From Azorhizobium caulinodans ORS 571 (GTDB lineage: Bacteria; Pseudomonadota; Alphaproteobacteria; Rhizobiales; Xanthobacteraceae), in assembly GCF_000010525.1 (NCBI RefSeq), contig NC_009937.1, positions 4,655,501-4,719,500 of the forward strand: 64,000 nt of DNA. The letters are read 5' to 3'. Of this stretch, positions 13,672 through 27,885 are shown in pieces. Under the pieces are notes generated by a model, which ran no database searches, was not told the DNA's origin, and saw only the letters and a program-made list of their open reading frames with translations. Within the stretch, counting starts at the first letter, position 1. The number at the start of each line of letters is the position of its first letter. The position numbers and the translations under genes are program-made.

Positions 13672-14649
13672 ATGACCAACGGCAGCGGCCTCGCCTCCCG
13701 GCCTCTTGATCCGGCCCTGCGTGCCTATCTGGACAGCCTGGCGCCCCCGCCCGGCACACCCGTGCCGCAGACCGACGCGGAGATCCTCATCGCCCGGCGC
13801 ACGGCGCTTGAGACGGCCCGCGCCGTGCGCACAACCATCCCGGGTCTGCCCAACGGCGTCGAGACCGCCGATATCCGCATCGACGATGACCTACGCGGGC
13901 GGCTCTACCAGCCCGGCCGGGATGGCCCGCATCCGTTGCTCATCTATTTTCATGGCGGCGGCTGGGCCGCCGGCTCGCTGGAGACGCACGATCCCTTCTG
14001 CCGCCTGCTCAGCGCGGCGGCGGACGTGCTCATCCTCTCGGTAGATTATCGCCTCGCGCCGGAGCACCCCTTTCCGGCCGGACTGGAGGATGCGATGACG
14101 GCCGCCCGCTTCGTGCTGCGCGAAGCCGATCATCTGGGCGGCGACCGCATGCGCCTTGCCATCGGCGGCGACAGCGCTGGCGGCAATCTCGCGGCAGCCG
14201 CACTCAACCGGCTGGCGACCGCAGGCCTTGGGTCGGGTTTCCGCGCCCAGATGCTGCTCTATCCCGTGACCGATCTGCCCGATGCGGGGCACCCCTCCTA
14301 TGAGGAGAATGCGCGCGGCTATGGTCTCGAAGCGGACCTGATGCGCTGGTTCTGGCGCATCTATGCGCCGGGCGTGAGCGGGGCCGATTTCGATGCCGCG
14401 CCGCTGCGCCACCCCAATCTGCCGCCGCTGCCGCCGACCCTCATCACCACGGCGCAATATGACGTGTTGCGGGATGAGGCGGTCGTCTATGCGCACAAGC
14501 TTCAGGCCGCAGGCGTGACCGTCACGCACCTCCACGCCCCCGACATGCACCATGACTTCGCCGTGGGCGGCGGCACGGTTGCGCGCTTCCCGCAATGCGT
14601 GGCGACGCTGAGGGACATCGCCGGCTGGCTGAAGGCGGCGCTGGGCTAA
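13672..14649 (+). CDS. Alpha/beta hydrolase, bacterial hormone-sensitive-lipase family esterase
   Basis: This roughly 325-residue esterase has the HSL-family oxyanion motif HGGGW (about residues 96-100) and the nucleophile elbow GDSAGGN with the catalytic Ser. The likely triad partners are the Asp in AQYDVLRDE and the His in MHHDF near the C-terminus. VDYRLAPEHPFPAGLED is a family signature. It should hydrolyse short- to medium-chain esters in the cytoplasm. The start at 13672 (MTNGSG) fits the conserved region; the frame runs back to 13603 with no clear ribosome site for either. Confidence 0.88.
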   Translation: MTNGSGLASRPLDPALRAYLDSLAPPPGTPVPQTDAEILIARRTALETARAVRTTIPGLPNGVETADIRIDDDLRGRLYQPGRDGPHPLLIYFHGGGWAAGSLETHDPFCRLLSAAADVLILSVDYRLAPEHPFPAGLEDAMTAARFVLREADHLGGDRMRLAIGGDSAGGNLAAAALNRLATAGLGSGFRAQMLLYPVTDLPDAGHPSYEENARGYGLEADLMRWFWRIYAPGVSGADFDAAPLRHPNLPPLPPTLITTAQYDVLRDEAVVYAHKLQAAGVTVTHLHAPDMHHDFAVGGGTVARFPQCVATLRDIAGWLKAALG

Positions 14650-14671
14650 GCTTCGCGCCGGCGGCCTCGCG

Positions 14672-15025
14672 TCAATGGCTGATCATCCACGGCCGGGCCG
14701 AGGGGAAGCTCTTGGCCCCCGAGGGCGCGGTGGCGGTGCGGCTCTTCTTGGAGCGGCTCTGCATGCCGGAGCAACAAGAGCAGCCCGCGCCATGCTTCTT
14801 CGCCGCGAATTCAGAAGACGTCATGGGCGCGTTGGCGCTGCGCTCGTTGGTGGCGATGGCGGTGCGGCGGGCACTGTCCATGCCTGCGAAATAGGGCGCG
14901 GAGAGAAAGGCGCGGGGCGCCAGCAGCCCGCAGTCCGGGCAGGACTGCGGATCTGCGCACGCGCTCATGGGGTGCATCTGCGTGAAGGGGCCGCAGTCCT
15001 CGCACATGTAGTCATAGACCGGCAT
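14672..15025 (-). CDS. fmdB: FmdB-family zinc-ribbon protein
   Basis: This 117-residue protein begins MPVYDYMCEDCG, the FmdB zinc-ribbon opening, with CxxC pairs at about 8-11 and 29-32 and an unusual CSCC motif near residue 82. FmdB was named as a putative regulator of formamidase expression in Methylophilus. The start at 15025 follows GGGAGA. It is the last gene of the urt-fmdA-fmdB unit, 61 nt after fmdA. The length beyond the ribbon is low-complexity and of unknown role. A direct DNA-binding role is not shown. Confidence 0.85.
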   Translation of the reverse strand: MPVYDYMCEDCGPFTQMHPMSACADPQSCPDCGLLAPRAFLSAPYFAGMDSARRTAIATNERSANAPMTSSEFAAKKHGAGCSCCSGMQSRSKKSRTATAPSGAKSFPSARPWMISH

Positions 15026-15086
15026 GGGGCTCTCCCGAGATGGGCCGGCAGACCGGTTGACCCGGCCTGCCATTGAAGGGTGACGC

Positions 15087-16319
15087 TCAGACGAGATCGG
15101 GCGACAGCGGCATGTCCACGGAGCCGTCGAGGAACCTGGTCGGCCCCGCCGCGCTGGGATTGATGTCGAAATCGAAGATCTCGGTGGGCAGCCAGAGCGT
15201 GGCGCAGGCGTTCGGCACGTCCACGACGCCCGAGATATGGCCCTGCACCGGAGCGGTGCCGAGGATGGAATAGGCCTGCGCGCCCGAATAGCCGAACTTC
15301 TTCAGATACTCGATGGCATTGAGGCAGGCCTGCCGGTAGGCAATGTGCACGTCGAGATAATGCTGCTTGCCCGCCTCATCCACCGAGATGCCCTCGAAGA
15401 TGAGATAGTCCTTGTAGTTGGGCGTGATGGGCGAGGGCTTGAAGATGGGATTCTTGATCCCGTACTTCGCCATGCCGCCCTTCAGCACGTCCACCTTGAG
15501 ATGCACCCAGCCAGCCATCTCGATGGCGCCGCAGAAGGTGATCTCGCCATCGCCCTGGCTGAAGTGCAGGTCGCCCATGGAGAGGCCGCCGCCTTCCACA
15601 TAGACCGGGAAATAGATCTTGGAGCCGCGCGACAGATCCTTGATGTCGCAATTGCCGCCATGCTCGCGCGGCGGCACGGTGCGCGCCCCTTCCGCCGCCG
15701 CCTTGTCGCGGGCCTCGCCGGTGAGGCGGCCCATGTGGGCGGTGGGGCCGAAGGGCGGGTTGGCAAGGCCGGGCACGCGGTTGGGATCGGTGGCGATGAA
15801 ATCCACCTCGCGCTTGTTCCAGGTCTCCAGCAGCTTCGGATCCGGCAGGCAGCCGATGAGGCCGGGGTGGATGAGGCCGGCGAAGTTCACGCCCGGCACG
15901 TGGCGGGAAGACGTGAACATGCCCTTGAAGTCCCAGATGGACTTCTGCGCCTGCGGGAAGTGGTCGGTCAGGAAGCCGCCGCCATTCTTCTTGGAGAAGA
16001 AGCCGTTGAAGCCCCACTGGCTGTCCGGCATGGCGCCGATGTCCAGGAGGTCCACCACCAGCAGGTCGCCGGGCTCGGCGCCCTTCACGCCGATGGGGCC
16101 GGAGAGGAAGTGAACGATGGAGAGGTCGATGTCGCGCACGTCGTCGGCGCTGTCGTTGTTCTTGATGAAGCCACCGGTCCAGTCATAGGTCTCGACGATG
16201 AAATCGTCGCCCGGCTTGACCCAAGCCACCATGGGAATGTCCGGGTGCCAGCGGTTGTGCACCATGTCGTTGTCATAGGCGGACTGGCTGAGATCCACCT
16301 TGATGAGCGTATCAGTCAT
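15087..16319 (-). CDS. fmdA: Formamidase (acetamidase/formamidase family)
   Basis: This 410-residue enzyme hydrolyses formamide (and possibly other short amides) to formate and ammonia. It matches FmdA over its whole length: the opening MTDTLIKVDLSQSAYDNDMVHNRWHP-type region, GAEPGDLLVVDLLDIG, NFAGLIHPGLIGCLPD, EHGGNCDIKDLSRGSK and MGDLHFSQGDGEITFCGAIE. The start at 16319 is the family start; the frame extends 27 nt upstream. It lies 78 nt after urtE on the same strand, followed by fmdB. The operon links import of a urea/amide-like solute to its hydrolysis, so ammonia supply is the probable purpose. Confidence 0.93.
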   Translation of the reverse strand: MTDTLIKVDLSQSAYDNDMVHNRWHPDIPMVAWVKPGDDFIVETYDWTGGFIKNNDSADDVRDIDLSIVHFLSGPIGVKGAEPGDLLVVDLLDIGAMPDSQWGFNGFFSKKNGGGFLTDHFPQAQKSIWDFKGMFTSSRHVPGVNFAGLIHPGLIGCLPDPKLLETWNKREVDFIATDPNRVPGLANPPFGPTAHMGRLTGEARDKAAAEGARTVPPREHGGNCDIKDLSRGSKIYFPVYVEGGGLSMGDLHFSQGDGEITFCGAIEMAGWVHLKVDVLKGGMAKYGIKNPIFKPSPITPNYKDYLIFEGISVDEAGKQHYLDVHIAYRQACLNAIEYLKKFGYSGAQAYSILGTAPVQGHISGVVDVPNACATLWLPTEIFDFDINPSAAGPTRFLDGSVDMPLSPDLV

Positions 16320-16397
16320 GGACGGCTCCGTTTCCTTGGGACGCAAAGACGAAGGACGGCGTGAAACCGCGCGGGAGCGCCGCGCGGCGCGGGCGGA

Positions 16398-17087
16398 TCA
16401 GACGGAGAGGAATTTCGAGACCTTGGCCTCGTCGATATCGGCGCGAGCATCCTCATGGACGATCTCGCCGTTCTCCAGCACCAGCACCCGGTCCGCGATA
16501 TCGAGCGCGAAGGAGAGCACCTGCTCGGACACCACGATGGAAAGCCCGCGCTCATCACGAATGCGCTTCAGGGTGCGGGCCATGTCGCGGATGATGCTGG
16601 GCTGGATGCCCTCCGTGGGCTCATCCAGCAGCAGCACCTTCGGCTTGGTGGCGAGCGCGCGGGCGATGGCGAGCTGCTGCTGTTGGCCGCCGGAAAGATT
16701 GCCGCCGCGCCGCTTCTTCATCTCCAGCAGCACGGGGAACAGCTCGTAAATGTCGCCCGGCACCTTGCTCTCGCCATGGGCGACGAGGCCGGTCTCGATA
16801 TTTTCCTCAACCGACATGGTGGAGAAGATCATGCGCCCCTGCGGCACGTAGGCGATGCCCTTGGCCACCCGCTGATGGCTCTTCATTGCGGTGATATCCC
16901 CCTCGCCCAGCGAGACCTTGCCGGAGCGGGTGGGCACCACGCCCATGAGCGACTTCATGAGCGTGGTCTTGCCCATGCCGTTGCGCCCCATGATGGCGAC
17001 GATCTCGCCGGGTGCGACGGAGAAGTTCAGGCCGTGCAGCACTTCGCTCTGGCCGTAGGAGACGACGAGATTCTCGACGTTCAGCAT
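16398..17087 (-). CDS. urtE: Urea/amide ABC transporter ATP-binding protein UrtE
   Basis: This 229-residue LivF-like ATPase has Walker A GRNGMGKTT, signature LSGGQQQQLAIARAL and Walker B LLLDEPTEGIQPSI. It energises uptake together with UrtD. The start at 17087 (MLNVENLVV) is supported by GAGGAGG just upstream. It begins 11 nt after the urtD stop. Whether the cargo is urea (Urt) or short-chain amides (Fmd) is not decided by the ATPase. Confidence 0.9.
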   Translation of the reverse strand: MLNVENLVVSYGQSEVLHGLNFSVAPGEIVAIMGRNGMGKTTLMKSLMGVVPTRSGKVSLGEGDITAMKSHQRVAKGIAYVPQGRMIFSTMSVEENIETGLVAHGESKVPGDIYELFPVLLEMKKRRGGNLSGGQQQQLAIARALATKPKVLLLDEPTEGIQPSIIRDMARTLKRIRDERGLSIVVSEQVLSFALDIADRVLVLENGEIVHEDARADIDEAKVSKFLSV

Positions 17088-17098
17088 GGCGCGCCTCC

Positions 17099-17866
<768 letters not shown>

Positions 17867-17878
17867 GGGGTTTCCTCC

Positions 17879-18994
17879 TCATTCGGCCGGGGCGGGAGCG
17901 GCCTTGGGCTCAGCGCCCTTTCGGCCAAGGAGCGCGCCGAGGCGCGGTTCCACATAGGTGCGGTAGAGGCCGGCCAAGCCATTCGGGAACAGCAGCACCA
18001 CGGCGATGAAGAGGCCGCCGAGGCCGAACAGCCACAGCTCCGGGAAGCTCTCGGAGAAGGAGGTCTTGGCCCAGTTCACCAGGAGCGTGCCGTACACCGC
18101 GCCGAGCAGCGACAGACGCCCACCCACGGCGGTGTAGATGACCATCTCGATAGAGGGCGTGATGCCCACGAAGGAAGGCGACATGAAGCCCACCTGGAGC
18201 GTGAACATGGCCCCGCCGATGCCCGCGAGCGCGGCGGCGAAGCAGAAGACAAAGATCTTGAAGCTCGCCACGTCATAGCCGGAGAAGCGCACCCGGTCCT
18301 CCTTGTCGCGCATGGCGACGAGGATGCGGCCGAGCTTGGAGCGCTGCACGAACTGGCACAGCAGGATGACGCCGATGAGCAGGCCCACATTGACGAAATA
18401 GAGGATGAACTTGGCGCTGTCGGTGCGGATGTCCCAGCCGTGCAGCGTGCGCAGATCGGTGATGCCGTTGACACCGCCGGTGTAGCCCTGCTGGCCAATG
18501 ATGAGGATGCTCATGATCGCCGCCAGCGCCTGCGTGATGATCGCGAAGTAGACGCCGCCCACCCGCCGCTTGAAGAGCGCGAAGGCAAGGACGAGGGCGA
18601 ACACCGCCGGCACCAGCATCACCGCGATGACGGAGAAGCCCAGCGACTTGAACGGCACCCAGAAGAAGGGCAGCGAGGTGAGCTGGTTCCAGTCCATGAA
18701 ATCCGGAATGCCGGGCGTGGACTGGATCTTGGTGGCCTCGGGGGTGGAGGCCTCCAGCTTCAGATACATGGCCATGCAATAGCCGCCGAGGCCGAAGAAC
18801 ACACCCTGGCCGAGGGAGAGAATGCCCGCATTGCCCCAGCACAGCACGAGGCCGACGGCGACGAAGGCATAGGTGAGATATTTGCCCACCATGTTGAGCC
18901 GGAACGGCTCCAGCACCAGCGGCAGCACCACCACCAGCAGCACGGCGAGGAGGAGGACGCCGAGGAGATCCTTGGAACGCAGCGAGAATGACAT
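17879..18994 (-). CDS. urtC: Urea/amide ABC transporter permease UrtC
   Basis: This 371-residue inner-membrane permease of the LivM type has about nine to ten hydrophobic segments. Features typical of UrtC are YAFVAVGLVLCWGNAGILSLGQGVFFGLGGYCMAMYL-like topology near residues 40-75 and the loop YTGGVNGITDLRTL, with the EAA-like contact region around RILVAMRDKEDRVRFSGYDV. It lies 12 nt after urtB. Confidence 0.92.
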   Translation of the reverse strand: MSFSLRSKDLLGVLLLAVLLVVVLPLVLEPFRLNMVGKYLTYAFVAVGLVLCWGNAGILSLGQGVFFGLGGYCMAMYLKLEASTPEATKIQSTPGIPDFMDWNQLTSLPFFWVPFKSLGFSVIAVMLVPAVFALVLAFALFKRRVGGVYFAIITQALAAIMSILIIGQQGYTGGVNGITDLRTLHGWDIRTDSAKFILYFVNVGLLIGVILLCQFVQRSKLGRILVAMRDKEDRVRFSGYDVASFKIFVFCFAAALAGIGGAMFTLQVGFMSPSFVGITPSIEMVIYTAVGGRLSLLGAVYGTLLVNWAKTSFSESFPELWLFGLGGLFIAVVLLFPNGLAGLYRTYVEPRLGALLGRKGAEPKAAPAPAE

Positions 18995-19006
18995 GGGTCG
19001 GGCTCC

Positions 19007-19933
19007 TCAGCGACGGACCTTGAGGACGAAGAGGCCTTCGGGGCGCAGCATCAGGATGCCGACCACCACCAGCAGCGTGAGCACCTTGGCCATGGAGCCG
19101 GACATGAAGAATTCCATGGTCGACTGCGCCTGCGAGATGGTGAAGGCCGAGGCGATGGTGCCCGCGAGCGAGGCCGCCCCGCCGAAGACCACCACGAGGA
19201 AGGTATCCACGATGTAGAGCTGGCCGGCGGTCGGCCCGGTGGAGCCGATCATGGTGAAGGCGGAGCCCGCCACCCCCGCGATGCCGCAGCCGATGCCGAA
19301 AGTCATGCGGTCCACCCGCTCGGTGGAAATGCCCACCGCCCCGGCCATGGTGCGGTTGAGCACAACGGCGCGCACCTGAAGGCCCCAGCGGGAGCGGAAC
19401 ATCAGCAGATAGACGGCGACGGCAATGAGCGTGGTGAGGCCCATGACGAACAGGCCGTTGATCTGCACCTCAATGGTGTCGGTGACGGCAAGCGAGCCCA
19501 TCATCCATTCGGGCAGTTCGACACCCACCTCGCGCGCGCCGAAGATGGAGCGGAAGGCCTGCTGCATGATGAGCGAAAGGCCCCAGGTGGCGAGCAGTGT
19601 GTCCAGCGGCCGCTTGTAGAGGAAGCGGATGAGCCCCCATTCCACCAGCATTCCGAGGCCGCCGGAGACGACGAAGGCCACCGCCATGGCGACAAAGAAG
19701 TAGATGCCGTAAAGGCCGGGCGCGTATGCCTGGAAGAGCTGGGAGGTCAGATAGGTCATGTAGGCGCCGAGGATCATGAACTCGCCGTGCGCCATGTTGA
19801 TCACGCCCATCTGGCCGAAGATGATGGCAAGGCCGAGGGACATCAGCACGAAGACCGAGAACAGGATCAGGCCCGCGAAGGCCTGCATGGCAAAGATCGA
19901 GCCGAGCTCGCCGAGCGAATATCCCATGAACAT
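19007..19933 (-). CDS. urtB: Urea/amide ABC transporter permease UrtB
   Basis: This roughly 308-residue LivH-type inner-membrane permease contains the family hallmark GLAIIFGQMGVINMAHGE near the N-terminus, and EAA-like and C-terminal segments (VVVVFGGAASLAGTI). The start at 19933 (MFMGYSLGEL) lies just before the first membrane segment; an upstream in-frame start at 19999 would add 22 residues that look non-homologous. The 268-nt gap between urtA and urtB is filled by palindromic repeats. Confidence 0.9.
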   Translation of the reverse strand: MFMGYSLGELGSIFAMQAFAGLILFSVFVLMSLGLAIIFGQMGVINMAHGEFMILGAYMTYLTSQLFQAYAPGLYGIYFFVAMAVAFVVSGGLGMLVEWGLIRFLYKRPLDTLLATWGLSLIMQQAFRSIFGAREVGVELPEWMMGSLAVTDTIEVQINGLFVMGLTTLIAVAVYLLMFRSRWGLQVRAVVLNRTMAGAVGISTERVDRMTFGIGCGIAGVAGSAFTMIGSTGPTAGQLYIVDTFLVVVFGGAASLAGTIASAFTISQAQSTMEFFMSGSMAKVLTLLVVVGILMLRPEGLFVLKVRR

Positions 19934-20035
19934 GCGATGGTTCCCGGTTCCGGTTTCTGGGTGGTCGGCTTCAGAAACTGCGGGGGCGTCTGCAAGCACG
20001 CCCCATGGTGCGAATGGCCCGCTGAGCGTTCAAAG

Positions 20036-20170
20036 CCCTCCCCCCTTGCGGGGGAGGGTTAGGAGGGGGGTAACGCGGTTACGTCTGTCGTGCCCCTGCT
20101 CTCGGCTGAGCCCGCTCCGGCGGAGAGGGCATTACCCCTCTCCCCAGCCCTCCCCCTCAAGGGGGGAGGG
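20036..20170. repeat. Palindromic GC-rich repeat cluster between urtA and urtB
   Basis: Three hairpins lie in tandem: CCCTCCCCC/GGGGGAGGG at 20036-20058, GGAGAGGG/CCCTCTCC at 20122-20143, and a second copy of CCCTCCCCC/GGGGGAGGG at 20148-20170. The repeated C-run/G-run unit resembles the mobile intergenic palindromes common in alphaproteobacterial genomes. Between the binding-protein gene and its permease genes such hairpins usually protect the upstream mRNA and lower downstream expression. Confidence 0.7.
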
Positions 20171-20201
20171 AGCATCTCCAGCAGAGGCCCTGTTCAGTCG
20201 C

Positions 20202-21482
20202 TCACTGATAGCCCTTCGGGAACGGATCGGGCTCGACCAGCTCGGAGGTCTCGTAGACCACGTCATACTGGCCATCGACGCGTGCCTTGCCGACGCGGGT
20301 CTTGCTCCAGAGATGGTGGTTCTCGTGGATTCGCACGTAGCCTTCCGGCGCCTTGTCGAAGGCAACGCCCGGCGAGGCCGCGGCCACCTTGTCGATGTCG
20401 AAGGAGCCGGCCTTTTCCACCGTCAGTTTCCAGAGCCACGGGCCGAGATAAGCGGCCTGCGTCACGTCGCCGATGACGATCTTGTCGCCATAGGTCTTCT
20501 TGAACGCCTCGACGAACGCCTTGTTGTTGGGATTGTTGAGCGACTGGAAATACTTCATGCAGGCAAAGGCGCCAGCGATATTCTCGCCGCCGATGCCGAG
20601 GATCTCGTCTTCCGTCACCGAGATGGTGAGCAGGGTCTGCTTGGAGAGGTCGATGCCCGCCGCCTTGAGCTGCTTGTAGAAGGCGACGTTCGAGCCGCCG
20701 ACGATGATGGCGTAGATCACATCAGGCTTGGTCAGCTTGATCTTGTTGATCGCCGAATTGAACTGGGTGTGGCCAAGCGGGAAGTACTCCTCGCCCACCA
20801 CCTTGAGCTTCAGGAAATTCTCGATGTGCTTACGGGCGATCTTGTTGGAGGTGCGCGGCCAGATATAGTCCGAGCCGAGCAGGTAGAAGGTCTGCGCCCC
20901 GCGCTCCTTCACCACCCAGTTGAGGCCGGCGATGATCTGCTGGGTGGCCTCCTGGCCGGTGTAGATCACGTTCTTGGACTGCTCCAGGCCTTCATAGAAG
21001 GTGGGATAATACAGCATGCCGTTATACTGCTCGAACACCGGCAGCACCGCCTTGCGGGACGCAGAGGTCCAGCAACCGAACACAGAGGCGCACTTGTCCT
21101 GCACCAGCAGCTTCTTGGCCTTCTCCGCGAAGGTCGGCCAATCGGAGGCGCCATCCTCCTGAATGAACTTGATCTTGCGGCCGAGGATGCCGCCGGCGGC
21201 GTTGATCTGGTCGATGGCGAGCTTCTCGGCCTGCACCGAGCCGGTCTCTGAAATGGCCATGGTGCCGGTGACGGAGTGCAGGATGCCGACCGTGACTTCC
21301 GTATCGGTCACGGCGAGACCGGTCGTATTCACGGCAGAAGTCGGCGGAACATCAGCGCGGGCCGGCGTCGAGAGAAAAGAGGCGGCAGGAACAGCCGAAG
21401 CAATCGGCAGTGCGGCAAGCCCCTTCAATACGCCACGGCGCGTGGCGCTCATCTTGTCCTGACGGTCGTCACTGGATGACAT
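20202..21482 (-). CDS. urtA: Urea/amide ABC transporter substrate-binding protein UrtA
   Basis: This 426-residue periplasmic binding protein has a Tat-type signal (TRRGVLKGLAAL, about residues 14-25, cleavage after PARA). The mature part is UrtA/FmdD-like: VGILHSVTGTMAISE, AIDQINAAGGILGRK, FGCWTSASRKAVLPVFE, LLYYPTFYEGLEQS-like and NVIYTGQEATQQI. These are branched-chain/amide-binding folds that bind urea or short amides. The start at 21482 is favoured by GGAGG 8 nt upstream; ATG at 21488 is an alternative with too short a spacer. It is the first gene of the operon, with an 18-bp palindrome about 106 nt upstream. Confidence 0.92.
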   Translation of the reverse strand: MSSSDDRQDKMSATRRGVLKGLAALPIASAVPAASFLSTPARADVPPTSAVNTTGLAVTDTEVTVGILHSVTGTMAISETGSVQAEKLAIDQINAAGGILGRKIKFIQEDGASDWPTFAEKAKKLLVQDKCASVFGCWTSASRKAVLPVFEQYNGMLYYPTFYEGLEQSKNVIYTGQEATQQIIAGLNWVVKERGAQTFYLLGSDYIWPRTSNKIARKHIENFLKLKVVGEEYFPLGHTQFNSAINKIKLTKPDVIYAIIVGGSNVAFYKQLKAAGIDLSKQTLLTISVTEDEILGIGGENIAGAFACMKYFQSLNNPNNKAFVEAFKKTYGDKIVIGDVTQAAYLGPWLWKLTVEKAGSFDIDKVAAASPGVAFDKAPEGYVRIHENHHLWSKTRVGKARVDGQYDVVYETSELVEPDPFPKGYQ

Positions 21483-21587
21483 GCCCATTCCCTCCACGGA
21501 AAATCGTGGCCCGAACTTCGGCCCCAGCAGATTCACGAGCGAAGCTGCCATGGACCTCATGCTTCCCGTGAGTGCCGCAGCGCAGCA

Positions 21588-21605
21588 ATACGTCGATTGA
21601 CGTAT
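21588..21605. promoter_or_regulatory. Palindromic candidate operator ATACGTC-N4-GACGTAT
   Basis: Perfect 7-bp arms around GATT, centred about 114 nt upstream of the urtA start. Symmetric sites of this size are typical for dimers of LuxR-type response regulators, and such a regulator is encoded nearby (25453-26385). The link is an inference. Confidence 0.5.
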
Positions 21606-21713
21606 ATGCCCCCGCCCGGCCGACGCTATGCTGTGCTTGATCGAGCGGCTTGTCCGTGCGCGATGTGTTTCGCGCGTGCGCGAAGCGAGGGGGAGTGTAA
21701 TTCGTGAGCAGTG

Positions 21714-21740
21714 CCTGCCGCGTTGCTAAGCAGCGGCAGG
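21714..21740. other. Stem-loop in the urtA/sensor-kinase intergenic region
   Basis: An 8-bp stem (CCTGCCGC at 21714-21721, complement at 21733-21740) with an inner TGCT/AGCA pairing and a small bulge. It could be part of a leader of the sensor gene or a terminator of neighbouring transcripts. No T-run follows. Confidence 0.35.
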
Positions 21741-22049
21741 ACGGTCGCATGAGGGCTTCATGGAAGCAGGCGGAAAGCTGCGGAGACATCAGCAGAAAAA
21801 GAACGGAGCGGCTGAAAATGCAGCACGAATTCTGCTTGTGGAAAGCCGGGCAACGGCCGTAGTCTCCCGCAGGCTGGATTATGCCGCGTCGCGGGACGGA
21901 CTGACTCATCGCTCAGGTTGATGCGACCGGAGCGGAACGGCCTCTGGAGCGCGGTCCCTCAGGGTCGGAGCGCGCCAGCACGGAATTCTTCAGGGCCCGG
22001 AACAGTCACGGTTCCGGAAAGGGACATAATCAAAAATCCACGGGGAGCG

Positions 22050-25000
22050 ATGCAGCACGGAGGCCCTTCACCCCATCTGGAGGCGGGGCGCACGTCCATG
22101 GCGGCGGAACAGCGTATCGTCCGGGTCAGACGCCAGTACAACCAATGGGTCGTCAACGAGACCCTGGAAGACTACGCCCTGCGCTTCACCGCCAAGAGCG
22201 CGCGACGCTGGTCGCCCTTCCGCGTGGCGAACACCGCGCTCGGCGCCATCTCCTTCCTCGCGCTGGAAGCCATTGGCGGGGCGGTCACGCTCTCCTACGG
22301 CTTCACCAATGCCGCTGCCGGCATTCTGGCGGTGAGCCTCATCATCTTCCTCACCGGCCTGCCCATCTCCTATTATGCCGCGAAATTCGGCGTCGACATC
22401 GACCTGCTCACGCGGGGCGCCGGCTTCGGCTATATCGGTTCCACGGTCACCTCGCTCATCTACGCCTCCTTCACCTTCATCTTCTTCGCGCTAGAGGCGG
22501 CCATCCTCGCGCTGGCGCTGGAGATGTGCCTCGGCCTGCCGCTGGCGGCGGGCTATGTGCTGAGCGCGCTGGTGGTGATCCCGCTCGTCACCCACGGCAT
22601 CACCTTCATCAGCCGGTTCCAGACGTGGACGCAGCCGCTGTGGCTCGCCCTCCACATCGTGCCGCTGGTCTGGCTTCTGGCCCATCGGGGCGAGGAACTG
22701 ACCCACTGGATGGATTTCACCGGCCTCGCCGGCCCGAGGGATGGCGCCTTCAGCCTCATCGCCTTCGGCGGCGCCGCCACCGTGGTCTTCGCACTCGTGG
22801 CGCAGATCGGCGAGCAGGTGGACTATCTGCGCTTCCTCCCCCGCGAGGCTTCGGGGCGCAACATCAAGTGGTGGTGCGGCATGCTCGCGGCGGGGCCGGG
22901 CTGGATCATCCCCGGCGCGCTGAAAATGCTGGTCGGCTCCTTTCTCGCCTATCTGGCGCTGGAGAGCGGCGTGCCGCTCGACAAGGCGGCCGAGCCCACG
23001 CAGATGTATCTGGTCGCCTTCGGCGCCATGATCCCCTCCCATCAGGCGGCGCTGTGGCTGATGGGCGTGTTCGTCATCGTCTCGCAGTTGAAAATCAATG
23101 TGACGAACGCCTATGCGGGCTCCATCGCCTGGTCCAATTTCTTCTCCCGCCTCACCCATTCCCATCCCGGCCGTGTGGTGTGGCTGGTGTTCAACGTCAC
23201 CATCGCCCTGCTTCTCATGGAGCTCGGCATCTATCGGGTGCTGAACGAGACGCTGGGCATCTATGCCATCGTCGCCATCGCTTGGGTGGCAGCGCTGGTG
23301 GCGGACCTCGTGGTCAACAAGCCCCTCGGCCTCTCCCCACCGACCATCGAATTCAAGCGGGCGCATCTTTATGATGTGAACCCGGTGGGCGTCGGCGCGG
23401 TGCTGGCCGGCACGGGCGCGGCCATCCTCGCCTATACGGGGGCATTCGGCCCGCTGCCGCAGGCGTTCGCGCCCTTCATCGCGCTGGTGGTCTCCTTCCT
23501 CACCGCGCCGGTCATCGCGTTCGGCACGGGCGGGCGCTACTACACCGCCCGCAAGCCCAAGACCGAGTGGCGCAAGGGCATCGTGCGCTGCTGCATCTGC
23601 GAGCATAAATACGAGCCGGAGGACATGGCCCATTGCCCCGTCTATGCCGGCCCCATCTGCTCGCTCTGCTGCACGCTGGATGCCCGCTGCCACGACCGCT
23701 GCAAGACGGACGCGCGCGTCGCCGACCAGATCCTCGCCCTGCTCGGCTCGGCTTTGCCGGCCTGGGTGGTGGCGAAGCTCAATTCCCGCGTCGGGCATTA
23801 TCTCGCCATTCAGGCCATGCTGGCCTCGGTCATCGGCGGCATCCTCGCCATCATCTATTTCCACGCCCGCTTTGAGAGCCCGTCCCATGGCGAAGCGATC
23901 CGGGGTACGTTGTGGACGCTCTATTTCGTGCTGATGATCATCGTCGGCGTGGTGGCCTGGCTGTTCGTGCTGGCGCAGGAGAGCCGCCGGGTCGCGCAAG
24001 AGGAGAGCCAGCGCCAGACCACCCTCCTCATGCGCGAGATCGAAGCCCACAAGCGCACAGACGCCAAGCTCCAGAAGGCGAAGGAAGTGGCGGAGGCGGC
24101 GAACCTCGCCAAGAGCCGTTACGTGGTGGGCATCAGCCACGAACTGCGCACGCCGCTGAACGCCATCCTCGGCTATGCCCAGCTTCTGGAGCGCGACACC
24201 TCCATTCCCGCCCACCGGCGGGACGCCATCCGCGTGGTGCGCCGCTCCTCGGAGCATCTGTCGGGCCTCATCGACGGCCTGCTCGACATCTCCAAAATCG
24301 AGGCCGGGCGCCTGCACCTCTATCGCGACGAGGTGCGCATCCGCGACCTGCTGGACCAGCTGGTGGACATGTTCCGCCTCCAGGCCTCGGCGCGTGGCAT
24401 CGAGTTCATCCACATGCGCTCCGAGCGCCTGCCGGCGGTAGTCTTTACCGATGAGAAGCGCCTGCGGCAGATCCTCATCAATCTCCTGTCCAATGCCATC
24501 AAGTTCACAGCCAAGGGGCACGTGGCGCTGCGCGTGACCTATCGCAATCAGGTGGCGGAGTTCGAAGTCGAGGATACCGGCATCGGCATCGCGCCGGAGG
24601 AACGCGGCCGCATCTTCGAGCCCTTCGAGCGCGGCTCGCGCGGCGGGGCGTTCAACGCCATCGGCATCGGCCTCGGGCTCACCATCACCAAGCTCCTCAC
24701 CGAGATCATGGGCGGGGAGATCTCGCTGAAGAGCGAACTCGACAAGGGCAGCACCTTCAAGGTGCGCCTGCTGCTCTCGGAAGCGCCGGGTCGGGAGGCT
24801 GCGCCACCCGAGCAGCGCATCGTCGCCTATGCCGGCGCCGCCCGCACGGTGCTGGTGGCCGACGACGACGACGCCCACCGCGATCTCATGTGCGAGATGC
24901 TGCGCCCGCTCGGCTTCATCGTCTTCACCGCCGCAGATGGCCTCGCCTGCCTCGAGATGGCGGGCCAGACCGATCCCGATCTCGTGCTGCTCGATGTCTC

Positions 25001-25463
25001 CATGCCCCGCCTCACGGGCTGGGAGACGGCGACCGCCCTGCGCACCCGCGTCGCGCCGCGCGCCCGCATCATCATGGTCTCGGCCAATGCGCAGGAAATG
25101 GGCCGCCGGCCCGCCGAGCCGCGCCACCATGACGACCAGTGCGTGAAGCCGGTGGACCTGCGCATGCTGCTGGAGAAGATCCGCGCCCAGCTCGGCCTCG
25201 ACTGGGTCTATCAGTCGGACACGCCGGACCAGCCCGCCGCCATCGCCCCGCCGGTGGTCCCGCCGTCCGCCGGCCATATCGAGGAACTGCTGAAGCTCGG
25301 GCGCATCGGCTATGTGCGCGGCATCCAGGCCAAGCTTCAGTCTCTCGCCGCCGAATCCCCGGAGCACGAGCCGTTCGTCAAGGAGATGAGCGACATCGTA
25401 CGCACCTTCGATCTCAACCGCTACATGTCCGTTCTGGAGGCTCTGCGCACCCATGATGCATAG
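22050..25463 (+). CDS. Hybrid histidine kinase with NCS1-transporter-like sensor domain and cysteine-rich module
   Basis: Roughly 1137 residues. Residues about 30-495 are an NCS1 (purine/cytosine/allantoin permease-type) transporter-like region with 10-12 membrane segments (VNETLEDYALRF, EAIGGAVTLSYGF). Residues 513-551 form a Cys/His-rich module (C514, C515, C517, C529, C537, C540, C541, C547, C551), probably metal-binding. Two more membrane segments (about 585-605, 620-642) lead to a coiled coil, then HisKA with SHELRTPLN (H697), a HATPase with NLLSNAIKFT (N box), VEDTGIGIA (G1) and GIGLGLTITK (G2), and a receiver (933-1050; DDDD, phospho-Asp D982, K1033). This is a transporter-shaped sensor relaying to its own receiver and, by inference, the adjacent LuxR regulator; the ligand is unknown. 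Start 22050 is chosen by similarity and GGGGAG upstream; 21918 and 22098 are alternatives. Confidence 0.88.
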   Translation: MQHGGPSPHLEAGRTSMAAEQRIVRVRRQYNQWVVNETLEDYALRFTAKSARRWSPFRVANTALGAISFLALEAIGGAVTLSYGFTNAAAGILAVSLIIFLTGLPISYYAAKFGVDIDLLTRGAGFGYIGSTVTSLIYASFTFIFFALEAAILALALEMCLGLPLAAGYVLSALVVIPLVTHGITFISRFQTWTQPLWLALHIVPLVWLLAHRGEELTHWMDFTGLAGPRDGAFSLIAFGGAATVVFALVAQIGEQVDYLRFLPREASGRNIKWWCGMLAAGPGWIIPGALKMLVGSFLAYLALESGVPLDKAAEPTQMYLVAFGAMIPSHQAALWLMGVFVIVSQLKINVTNAYAGSIAWSNFFSRLTHSHPGRVVWLVFNVTIALLLMELGIYRVLNETLGIYAIVAIAWVAALVADLVVNKPLGLSPPTIEFKRAHLYDVNPVGVGAVLAGTGAAILAYTGAFGPLPQAFAPFIALVVSFLTAPVIAFGTGGRYYTARKPKTEWRKGIVRCCICEHKYEPEDMAHCPVYAGPICSLCCTLDARCHDRCKTDARVADQILALLGSALPAWVVAKLNSRVGHYLAIQAMLASVIGGILAIIYFHARFESPSHGEAIRGTLWTLYFVLMIIVGVVAWLFVLAQESRRVAQEESQRQTTLLMREIEAHKRTDAKLQKAKEVAEAANLAKSRYVVGISHELRTPLNAILGYAQLLERDTSIPAHRRDAIRVVRRSSEHLSGLIDGLLDISKIEAGRLHLYRDEVRIRDLLDQLVDMFRLQASARGIEFIHMRSERLPAVVFTDEKRLRQILINLLSNAIKFTAKGHVALRVTYRNQVAEFEVEDTGIGIAPEERGRIFEPFERGSRGGAFNAIGIGLGLTITKLLTEIMGGEISLKSELDKGSTFKVRLLLSEAPGREAAPPEQRIVAYAGAARTVLVADDDDAHRDLMCEMLRPLGFIVFTAADGLACLEMAGQTDPDLVLLDVSMPRLTGWETATALRTRVAPRARIIMVSANAQEMGRRPAEPRHHDDQCVKPVDLRMLLEKIRAQLGLDWVYQSDTPDQPAAIAPPVVPPSAGHIEELLKLGRIGYVRGIQAKLQSLAAESPEHEPFVKEMSDIVRTFDLNRYMSVLEALRTHDA

Positions 25464-26385
25464 TGCCAAACGCCGCGACATCGTCCTCGTGGTGGACGAC
25501 AGCCCCGAAACCCTGAGCCTGCTCACCGATGCGCTGGAGGATGCGGGTGTCACCGTCCTCGTGGCGGTGGAGGGGGCCAATGCGCTGACCCTCGTGGAGC
25601 AGATCACGCCGGACGTGATCCTGCTCGATGCCATCATGCCCGGCATGGACGGCTTCGAGACCTGCCGCCGGCTGAAGGCGCTGAAAGCCCTCGCCCATGT
25701 GCCGGTCATCTTCATGACCGGCCTCTCGGAGACCGAGCACATCGTGAAGGGGCTCGACGCGGGCGGCGTGGACTATGTGACCAAGCCCGTGGTGCCGAAC
25801 GAGATCATCGCCCGGATGCGCGTGCATCTGGCCAATGCCCGGCAAACCCAGAGTGCGCAGGTGGCGCTGGATGCGGCGGGGCGCTTTCTCATGTCCGCCA
25901 GCCTCGACGGGCGTGTGCTGTGGAGCACCCCGCAGGCCACCCGCCTCATCGGCGCCCAGTTCACCGCCTTGCCGGGCGAGGGCTATCTGCTGCCGGACGC
26001 CGCCCTCTCGTGGCTGCGCGCGCGCCATGCGGCCCTCGGCACCCCGCCGGAGAGCGTGGAGCTGCCCGATCCCAATGGCGGGCGTAGCCTCAAGCTCTCC
26101 TACGTGGGCCAGATCGGCGAGCAGGAAGTGCTGCTGCGTGTTACCGACGAGGTGCGCGTCCGCGACGAGGACATTTTGCGGACGGCGCTCGGCATCACGC
26201 AGCGGGAGGCGGAAGTCCTGCTGTGGATCGCCCGCGGCAAGCCCAACCGCGACATCGCCGAAATCCTCGGCCTCTCGCCCCGCACCGTGAACAAGCATCT
26301 GGAGCAGATCTACGCCAAGATCGGCGTCGAGAACCGCGCCGCCGCCGCCGCCATGGCCGTTAAGGCGCTTTCCGGTCCGCAGTAG
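25453..26385 (+). CDS. LuxR/FixJ-type response regulator
   Basis: This 310-residue protein has a receiver domain (about 8-125; acidic pair D15/D16, phospho-acceptor D59, T89, K111), a long unassigned middle (about 130-235) and a C-terminal LuxR-type helix-turn-helix (about 240-305; LGITQREAEVLLWIARGKPN, LGLSPRTVNKHLEQIYAKIG). It is a transcription factor, presumably phosphorylated by the hybrid kinase; its start overlaps the kinase stop by 11 nt, so the pair is translationally coupled. The middle segment resembles a degenerate PAS-like linker. Likely targets are the divergent urt-fmd genes; this is inferred from position. Confidence 0.9.
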   Translation: MMHSAKRRDIVLVVDDSPETLSLLTDALEDAGVTVLVAVEGANALTLVEQITPDVILLDAIMPGMDGFETCRRLKALKALAHVPVIFMTGLSETEHIVKGLDAGGVDYVTKPVVPNEIIARMRVHLANARQTQSAQVALDAAGRFLMSASLDGRVLWSTPQATRLIGAQFTALPGEGYLLPDAALSWLRARHAALGTPPESVELPDPNGGRSLKLSYVGQIGEQEVLLRVTDEVRVRDEDILRTALGITQREAEVLLWIARGKPNRDIAEILGLSPRTVNKHLEQIYAKIGVENRAAAAAMAVKALSGPQ

Positions 26386-26638
26386 ATCGGCCCGCCCCTT
26401 GCGAATGACTGGCGTTCGCGCGGCGCATGGACAAAGCCGCCGTCTCGCCTATTCTAGCGCCGCCGACCGGCCGCGGCGGCAGGCATGCCTGCGCGCGTTT
26501 ATGGGATGCGTCGGTCAAAGGCGAGGATGGAATGTCGATCCGGATGTGGGGGCGCCAGAACCAAGCGCTCGCAGGCGCTCAGGGCGGAACGGCCGCCACC
26601 GGTCCAGCGCCCGGATCGTGCCCCCGGAACGGCGCATC

Positions 26639-27247
26639 ATGAGCGAACCCCTGTCGGCACGGGACGACGGCGTGGCACCCAATGCCTCGCCAACGACGGA
26701 CGAGCGCGCCGCCCACAACGCCATGATCCTCGCCATTGCGGAGCGGCAGGACCGGGCCGCCTTCGCCGCCCTGTTCAAGCACTTCGCCCCGCGCCTCAAG
26801 ACCTTCCTCATGCGCTCCGGCCTCTCCGCCACGGCGGCGGAGGAGATCGCGCAGGAGACCATGCTCTCGGTCTGGCGCAAGGCCGGCTATTTCGACCCCG
26901 CCAAGGCCGGCGCGGCGACCTGGATCTTCACCATCGCCCGGAATCTCAAGATCGACGCCCTGCGCCGTGAACGCCCGGTGGCGCAGTTGCCCACGGAAGC
27001 GGAAGACACGCCGGACGAGGCTCCCAATGGGGAAGCGCTCGTTCTGGCGCAGGAGCGGGAGGACAAGGTGCGCGCCGCCCTCTCCCGTCTCTCGGCCGAC
27101 CAGGCCAATATCGTTCGCCTGTCCTTCTTTCAGGACAAGCCCCACGCCCAGATCGCAAAGGAACTCGGCATTCCGCTCGGAACCGCGAAATCGCGGGTGC
27201 GGCTTGCCCTTGCACGCTTGCGCGCGCTGCTGGAAGACATCGGATGA
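26639..27247 (+). CDS. ECF sigma factor (ECF11/RpoE-ChrR type)
   Basis: This 202-residue sigma factor has a region 2 (about 36-115: AFAALFKHFAPRLKTFL, QETMLSVWRKAGYFDP, WIFTIARNLKIDALRR) and a region 4 (about 145-200: LSADQANIVRLSFFQDKPHAQIA, LGIPLGTAKSRVRLAL). No region 3 is present, as in ECF factors. The start at 26639 (MSEPLSARD) is chosen as the family start; the frame is open upstream to 26399. Its stop overlaps the next gene by ATGA. The pairing with a cupin-type anti-sigma factor is that of RpoE/ChrR (singlet-oxygen response) systems. No -35 TGATCC-like site was seen upstream. Confidence 0.88.
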   Translation: MSEPLSARDDGVAPNASPTTDERAAHNAMILAIAERQDRAAFAALFKHFAPRLKTFLMRSGLSATAAEEIAQETMLSVWRKAGYFDPAKAGAATWIFTIARNLKIDALRRERPVAQLPTEAEDTPDEAPNGEALVLAQEREDKVRAALSRLSADQANIVRLSFFQDKPHAQIAKELGIPLGTAKSRVRLALARLRALLEDIG

Positions 27248-27885
27248 CGACCCCGCACGACGAAACGCTCGCCAGTTACGCCGCCGGCACGCTCGACGCC
27301 GGCATCCGCCTCGCGGTCGCGGCCCATCTGGAGGCCGCGCCGAAGAGCCGTGCCCGCCTCGCCCATTTCGAGGCCGCCGCCGGCGCCGTGCTGGATGACC
27401 TGCCGCCAACGGATCTGGCGAGCGACGCCCTCGACCGCCTGCTGGCCCGCCTCGACGAGCCGGAACCGCCGCCGCCCGCGCCTATCCCCGTGCGCCACGC
27501 CGCCCGCATGCCGACCGATGTCCGGCTGCCGAAGGCGCTGGAAGGCTGCTCCATCGGCCGCTGGATCTGGATCGGCCCCGGCGTGCGCTACAGTGCCATC
27601 TCCATTCCCGGCGCCCCGAAGGCCAATGTCGGCCTCGTGGAAGTGGGCCCCGGCCGGCGCATGCCCGACCACGGACACGGCGGCAACGAGATCACCTATG
27701 TGATCTCCGGCGGCTTCTCCGACGAGAACGGCCATTACGAAGCCGGCGACGTGTGCGAGGCGGACGAGAGCCTGGAGCACCAGCCAGTGGCCGATCCGGA
27801 AGGCTGCCTGTGCATCATCGCCATGGACGCGCCCATGCGCTTCAAGGGCCTGCTGGGCGCCGTGCTGAAGCCCTTCACCGGCTGA
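27244..27885 (+). CDS. ChrR-like anti-sigma factor with cupin domain, zinc cysteines replaced
   Basis: This 213-residue protein holds an N-terminal anti-sigma region and a C-terminal cupin domain (about 100-200), the ChrR layout. In ChrR the N-terminal zinc site is H-x25-H-x3-C-x2-C. Here H5 and H28 remain but the two cysteines are A32 and S35 (HLEAAPKSR), so the zinc site is incomplete. The cupin metal motif appears intact (RMPDHGHGGNE with later H in LEHQP). It overlaps the ECF gene by 4 nt and is co-transcribed. It probably binds and inhibits the sigma factor; how it senses without the cysteines is unclear. Confidence 0.85.
   Translation: MTTPHDETLASYAAGTLDAGIRLAVAAHLEAAPKSRARLAHFEAAAGAVLDDLPPTDLASDALDRLLARLDEPEPPPPAPIPVRHAARMPTDVRLPKALEGCSIGRWIWIGPGVRYSAISIPGAPKANVGLVEVGPGRRMPDHGHGGNEITYVISGGFSDENGHYEAGDVCEADESLEHQPVADPEGCLCIIAMDAPMRFKGLLGAVLKPFTG

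Follow-up and report, generated by a model that had tools for sequence, protein, structure and literature searches.

An NCS1-type transporter module fused to a hybrid histidine kinase, a candidate amide receptor beside the urtABCDE-fmdA-fmdB operon of Azorhizobium caulinodans

The window analysed here comprises 64,000 nucleotides from Azorhizobium caulinodans ORS 571 (contig NC_009937.1, positions 4,655,501 to 4,719,500 of the forward strand) and contains the gene of a hybrid histidine kinase whose N-terminal half is a membrane module related to carriers of the NCS1 family. The end of the kinase gene is overlapped by the gene of a LuxR-type response regulator, and an operon composed of urtA, urtB, urtC, urtD, urtE, fmdA and fmdB is transcribed divergently. 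The fusion of an NCS1-type module with a hybrid histidine kinase is real, and the proposal developed below is that this protein senses formamide or a similar amide.

Both halves of the fusion described in a first-pass annotation of this DNA are carried by a single uninterrupted open reading frame (ORF) of 1137 codons counted from the ATG at 22050, and neither a stop codon nor a frameshift separates them. Internal stops are also absent from all near-complete sensor matches in 41 near genomes and 398 genomes of the phylum. Because conservation begins at 22101, where the homologue alignment starts, the ATG one codon earlier (22098) is possibly the true start and as good a choice as 22050. In the translation from 22050 the two phospho-acceptors named before, H697 and D982, were found within SHELRTPLN and LLDVSMP, respectively. 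An antisense ORF of 1083 amino acids (22491-25742) was taken as a shadow ORF of high-GC DNA and rejected, since the codon-position pattern and the homologues belong to the + frame.

The domain order is NCS1-type membrane module, eight-cysteine segment, two transmembrane (TM) stretches, HisKA, HATPase_c and receiver. The last three domains, as had been expected, all exceed their Pfam cut-offs; N-terminal to HisKA the Pfam scan gave no match over cut-off. In an alignment of homologues with 57 rows the histidine of the H-box, the asparagine of the N-box and the aspartate of the G1-box are invariant (57/57), and the receiver aspartate is kept in all 54 rows having that domain; the three copies without a receiver are L063, L084 and L099. 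HisKA, HATPase_c, receiver and phospho-acceptor residues together identify a hybrid histidine kinase. Hydropathy averaged over the 57 homologues resolved 11 hydrophobic stretches up to residue 470 of P0002, in whose numbering residues 18-467 equal 35-484 of the 1137-amino-acid protein. One of them (118-167) has double length and room for two helices, which results in about 12 TM segments and agrees with the 10-12 counted previously. Two further stretches (TM13-14), centred at about 576 and 616, lie nearer the kinase. TM13-14, the eight-cysteine segment and the divergent formamidase operon are additions to the first-pass annotation.

The relationship to NCS1 carriers was addressed with hhalign, using a profile of 55 sensor halves as query and profiles of Pfam-identified NCS1, SSF, APC and NCS2 carriers as targets. 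In accordance with the NCS1-like N-terminal half claimed earlier, the NCS1 profile scored 99.5 % (E 1.8e-22) over 420 columns covering P0002 residues 18-467. The controls reached 1.6 % (SSF), 0.8 % (APC) and 0.1 % (NCS2), and an identity of the module as an SLC5 (SSF) transporter is thus not borne out; compared in this way, the NCS1 carrier profile itself reached 94.8 % against SSF and 93.4 % against APC. Profile similarity to NCS1 therefore spans the 12-TM core, whereas the curated cut-off of PF02133 is not reached. As this cut-off is a detection threshold, the module is named a divergent NCS1 relative and not a Pfam-defined member. A kinase-free relative (L047), 29 % identical over 477 residues, exceeds the cut-off of Transp_cyt_pur (PF02133) with 36.4 vs 23.5 bits; two other standalone candidates stay below it (L048 with 19.5 bits, L049 without a match). 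Next to this NCS1-like relative come a carbon-nitrogen hydrolase and then a binding protein of the UrtA/AmiC kind (L047:2949-7373), and the three may form an amide permease cluster. A further kinase-free protein, 45.6 % identical to sensor residues 19-484, is encoded on the Arthrobacter plasmid NicSoilB11-1 (L184:9881-11608); it keeps a vestige of the cysteine segment, and a Pfam search at E 0.1 returned nothing. No further sensor sequences were found in a scan of viral contigs.

Pocket positions, given in P0002 numbering, were deduced by combining the hhalign alignment with an alignment of the NCS1 carriers to Mhp1. Hydantoin is hydrogen-bonded in Mhp1 by Asn318 and Gln121 and stacked on by Trp117 (PMC4195764). 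Asn318 aligns with N336, which is kept in 57/57 rows. Gln121, reported as not conserved across the wider family, aligns with E132 in 56/56 filled rows, the position being acidic here, and Trp117 with F128 (50 F, 6 L); Trp220, changes of which barely affected uptake by Mhp1, aligns with V233 (PMC4195764). Because the polar pair is retained and the tryptophan pair is gone, the aligned pocket would fit a small non-aromatic amide. Furthermore, K331 is invariant (57/57) and falls at Mhp1 Ser312 or Thr313 in TM8, which we take to be sodium-site positions; the equivalent residue is K or R in the standalone relatives. When formamidase-type and urea-type copies were compared, positions 396 and 397 stood out: 397 is G or A in 38/38 formamidase-type rows and M, C, S or T in 15/17 urea-type rows. 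These are possible specificity positions, maybe reflecting a lineage effect; no significance test was made, and they are not used as support.

Between the NCS1 module and TM13-14 lies a segment with the cysteine spacing CxxC-x11-C-x7-CxxCC-x5-CxxxC, for which Pfam has no match and in which all eight cysteines are invariant in 57/57 rows. A profile of the segment and TM13-14, searched against the 398 phylum genomes with at most the best nine candidates scored in each, retrieved these kinases and a truncated remnant (G327). Two marginal matches (E ~1e-5) also appeared, neither of which extends over any of the cysteines. Within this sample the segment is taken to be confined to the kinase family. 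It is probably cytoplasmic, because 12 TM segments precede it and the kinase is cytoplasmic. One kinase remnant (L096:9901-11700) lacks the NCS1 part as well as some of the cysteine segment, and a homologue of the regulator lies on the opposite strand.

The features of the locus are collected in Table 1. Combining Response_reg and GerE, the partner regulator is of the LuxR/NarL type. The UrtA copy in the window (544.5 bits) is surpassed by another one in the genome (567.7 bits), which is located 7 kb from the urease (2.01 Mb), at a distance of about 2.7 Mb from the window. Since urease and best UrtA sit together far away, the operon in the window is probably an amide system. For the same reason, and because the divergent operon has a formamidase, formamide is more likely than urea as the ligand at this locus. 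Of the nucleobase-, urea- or amide-like solute envisaged earlier, the urea and amide part agrees with the gene context; the nucleobase part was set aside, as none of ten scanned neighbouring genes is nucleobase-related. Outside the window (C1:4435988-4443588) a second FmdA_AmdA-type match exists in two pieces (75.7 and 46.1 bits), with two UrtA-like proteins (~252 bits) a few kb away, another possible amide cluster. A gene for a ChrR-family anti-sigma factor (27244-27885 of the window) is found about 0.9 kb downstream of the LuxR-type regulator. An Rfam scan of 14000-27500 gave no match.

Table 1 Features of the kinase locus and the divergent operon (window positions)
Feature	Position	Strand	Evidence
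fmdB-type zinc ribbon protein	14672..15073	-	TIGR02605, NF053663
fmdA formamidase	15087..16346	-	NF045496 equivalog 775 bits, cut-off 500
urtE ATPase	16398..17102	-	TIGR03410
urtD ATPase	17099..17866	-	TIGR03411
urtC permease	17879..18994	-	TIGR03408
urtB permease	19007..19999	-	TIGR03409
urtA-like substrate-binding protein, likely amide	20202..21560	-	TIGR03407 543.9 bits, cut-off 492.75
Palindromic operator candidate TACGTCGATTGACGTA	21589-21604		motif enrichment, conservation across loci
NCS1-type hybrid histidine kinase, 1137 amino acids	22050..25463; alternative start ATG 22098	+	ORF, Pfam, hhalign, hydropathy
NCS1-like transporter module, ~12 TM	22152..23501	+	hhalign vs NCS1 profile; hydropathy
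Eight-cysteine segment	23589..23702	+	conservation in 57/57 rows; without Pfam match
Two extra TM stretches, TM13-14, N-terminal of kinase	23796..23975	+	hydropathy, 57 homologues
HisKA with H697	24111..24308	+	Pfam 63.1 bits
HATPase_c	24447..24776	+	Pfam 90.2 bits
Receiver domain with D982	24849..25184	+	Pfam 68.7 bits
Response regulator with LuxR/GerE domain; overlaps kinase gene end	25453..26385	+	Pfam Response_reg 98.1, GerE 67 bits

The sensor was matched in 11 of the 41 near genomes and in 55 of the 398 sampled phylum genomes, the own genome included in both counts, and a near-complete kinase-fused form is present in 52 of the latter. The three others have standalone carrier-like matches only (G233), a kinase remnant (G327) and a 50-residue fragment (G275). 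At most the best three candidates were scored per genome in the search of 398, and copies per genome are thus lower bounds. An NCS1-type input had been called much rarer than the SLC5 type; with these numbers it is not rare. For 56 kinase loci, 52 of them places found in the searches of the near and the phylum genomes, the surroundings were examined, about a dozen further places, mostly near-copies from the same genus, being left out. Genes for a formamidase, a urease or a urea/amide ATP-binding cassette (ABC) transporter were found in 54 of them (37 with fmdA, 11 with ureC, six with urtA but neither), and the two without such genes are short contigs (4.8 and 5.9 kb). In 45/56 loci a homologue of urtA can be recognised. 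In four genomes (G197, G264, G285, G417) one copy accompanies a formamidase cluster and another a urease. Two full copies exist in G023, one adjoining urtA and one receiver-less near fmdA; of the three receiver-less copies, L063 and L084 lie near fmdA. At L084:6998-10947 the receiver-less kinase is followed by a second protein, and at L063:7146-10956 the next protein has a receiver plus HATPase_c with a weak HisKA match. A quick tree was built from 58 sensor halves; its root lies on a very long branch, and 17 of its 55 inner branches are open. On it the formamidase/urea label requires four changes. When the fmd rows are treated as one group, five changes are necessary, at least three of them forced by starred branches, compared with a shuffled mean of 16.2.

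The 8-mer ATGACGTA occurs in 12 of 28 gaps between urtA and the kinase (12 near-copies of 40 gaps omitted), where 0.2 are expected and the largest excess in 20 shuffled sets was 7.05. It is contained in the palindromic pattern TACGTC-N4-GACGTA, which with at most one mismatch is present in the 700 nt preceding the kinase at 22/56 loci vs 0/280 shuffled regions. Over the whole 56 loci (1.06 Mb) 31 such sites exist, and 29 of these precede urtA, fmdA or the kinase by no more than 450 bp; the remaining two (L059, L065) are placed within extrapolated urtA starts. At six loci (L055, L061, L062, L067, L070, L071) a site precedes fmdA by 53-103 bp, and in the first four of them fmdA is more than 2 kb away from urtE. 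The relaxed form TACG-N8-CGTA was found in 31 of the 40 gaps, near-copies included, vs a shuffled mean of 0.09. In the A. caulinodans genome the exact pattern occurs once, between urtA and the kinase, and one more place has it with one mismatch. The neighbouring LuxR-type regulator would be the protein that binds this candidate operator. Sigma-54-like sites were not found in the 28 intergenic regions, and one weak sigma-70-like site in 21380-22120 is not used as support.

Computation shows the fusion, the homology to NCS1, the conservation of kinase and receiver residues, the gene linkage and the palindrome; from these results we infer the ligand, any transport, the sign of regulation, the palindrome binder and the role of the cysteines. 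With a probability of about 0.72 we propose that the protein is an NCS1 "transceptor" kinase which senses formamide or a similar amide and controls urtABCDE-fmdA-fmdB via the LuxR-type regulator. A small amide, at the A. caulinodans locus most likely formamide, would be bound by the NCS1-family module, and the conformational change would reach the kinase by way of the eight-cysteine segment and TM13-14. A phosphorelay from H697 to D982 and then to the regulator encoded next door may follow, and the regulator would bind TACGTC-N4-GACGTA between both transcription units and control the operon, whose products are predicted to import the amide and split it to ammonia and formate. The presence of formamide or urea probably switches the operon on.

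Several observations weigh against this proposal. The Transp_cyt_pur match expected in the first-pass annotation did not appear in the kinase protein, even at E 10, nor did the whole-genome Pfam search give a PF02133 match, and sequence searches of Pfam, NCBIfam and PDB with the protein and a first profile of 14 rows yielded no NCS1 match. An AlphaFold2 model based on five sequences reached a pLDDT of only 40.6. No palindrome with up to two mismatches is present in the examined stretch of 25 of the 56 loci; among the 11 ureC loci there is no site at one mismatch or fewer, and two have one at two mismatches. Moreover, amide genes are missing near the remnant L096, with which the linkage drops to 54/57, and the partner next to the receiver-less L063 is a different kind of protein.

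The NCS1 module might, in addition to sensing, import the amide itself and signal while cycling, as CbrA does with histidine. Such a true bifunctional permease-kinase is rather unlikely in our view. K331, invariant at the presumed sodium-site position, and the K or R kept there by the standalone relatives are consistent with it. A lysine also occupies the Na2 site of CbrA (PMC13022988), a transporter of L-histidine (PMC7096432). However, an ABC transporter is already present at the locus, and Ks-Amt5 binds ammonium without translocating it, which is why a transporter shape is no proof of transport.

Two other readings deny the module the role of amide receptor. It could read the state of UrtABCDE or of liganded UrtA by contact without binding the amide, as the detection of urtA in most loci would allow, but nine loci with ureC or fmdA have no urtA in the stretch (L078, L087 and L090 with other urt genes, six without), and the pocket positions of the module are strongly conserved. 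This makes a contact sensor improbable. Improbable too is a third arrangement in which the eight-cysteine segment is the true sensor, for a metal or redox state, and the NCS1 part just an anchor or gate. The invariance of all eight cysteines and their confinement to these kinases in the 398-genome sample speak for it; an anchor, though, is not expected to retain the pocket positions of a transporter, and in the standalone relative from Arthrobacter the membrane module is present with only one cysteine in the matching segment.

The proposed amide-sensing kinase is also found on plasmids. Among 72,556 plasmid records 531 match the sensor (tblastn), 508 of them over at least 80 % of its length, and 342 of the 531 are from Klebsiella. 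pKPN3-307 (L185) carries a formamidase-urtEDCBA cluster and, in divergent orientation to it, the kinase, whose annotation reads just "ATP-binding protein". This Klebsiella plasmid is conjugative, and insertion sequence (IS) elements flank the cluster on both sides (L185:5900-15372); the formamidase, annotated with 335 amino acids vs 419 in the ORF of the window, adjoins an IS1 transposase. The ST307 paper describes a urea transport cluster of pKPN3-307, and in the portion of its text that was searched the terms "sensor", "histidine kinase" and "two-component" do not occur (PMC5506382). A likely regulator can now be assigned to this "urea transport" cluster of Klebsiella plasmids. At the DNA level 4/5,426 E. 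coli genomes gave a match, spanning 16 % of the query; the one that was inspected has the gene order of pKPN3-307.

The chances are about even that these proteins constitute a class of NCS1 transceptor kinases, both widespread and unrecognised, which act as receptors for formamide and urea, possess a new eight-cysteine relay domain, moved about four times between formamidase and urease or urea-uptake loci and reached Klebsiella plasmids; the class would have gone unnoticed because Pfam gives the module no score. In many Pseudomonadota, it would be a concrete candidate for the receptor of small amides and urea. The predicted pocket residues, the operator and paralogue pairs of presumably different specificity make signalling by a transporter fold, with or without transport, testable.

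Descriptions of an NCS1-kinase fusion were absent at the level of titles and beginnings of abstracts, a weak absence, as subscription journals mostly lie outside this coverage. One genome paper draws a histidine kinase and a LuxR regulator beside urtABCDE, with a locus number next to fmdA and no additional remarks in the text consulted (PMC13296017), and for a urtABCDE cluster adjoining a formamidase import of formamide was proposed (PMC13209695). UrtABCDE amide-urea ABC transporters with FmdA/FmdB represent the kind of operon that would be controlled here, and the accessible parts of the literature on them and on FmdDEF do not describe an NCS1 sensor kinase. We presume that the amide transport operon of the window can be likened to FmdDEF.

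Among known systems the SLC5/STAC kinases CbrA, CrbS (MxtR) and RpuS likewise have a transporter domain fused via intervening domains to a (hybrid) kinase, and CrbS and RpuS also pair with LuxR-type regulators; CrbR of the CrbS/CrbR system acts at an imperfect inverted repeat (PMC5715377). However, their input is SLC5 and not NCS1 (99.5 % vs 1.6 % for the window kinase in hhalign), CbrA has STAC and PAS where the eight-cysteine segment and two TM stretches are found here, and the gene context here is that of amide and urea use. In Ks-Amt5 a nutrient transporter module was recruited as histidine kinase receptor as well, but it is an Amt module with ammonium as ligand. The 5TMR kinases YpdA and BtsS use a transporter-like membrane fold of another type, that of the ECF S-component, and the ligand of BtsS is pyruvate (PMC11109136). 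The carriers Mhp1 and CodB, the latter having surfaced merely as a weaker PDB match of the carrier profile, share profile homology with the module over the NCS1 core, and the position of Mhp1 Asn318 is kept. In contrast to both, the module lies below the Pfam cut-off, lacks the pocket tryptophan pair, has a lysine at the putative sodium site and is fused to a kinase. To the transporter-like kinase receptors in the literature found, SLC5, Amt and S-component, the NCS1 type adds another family.

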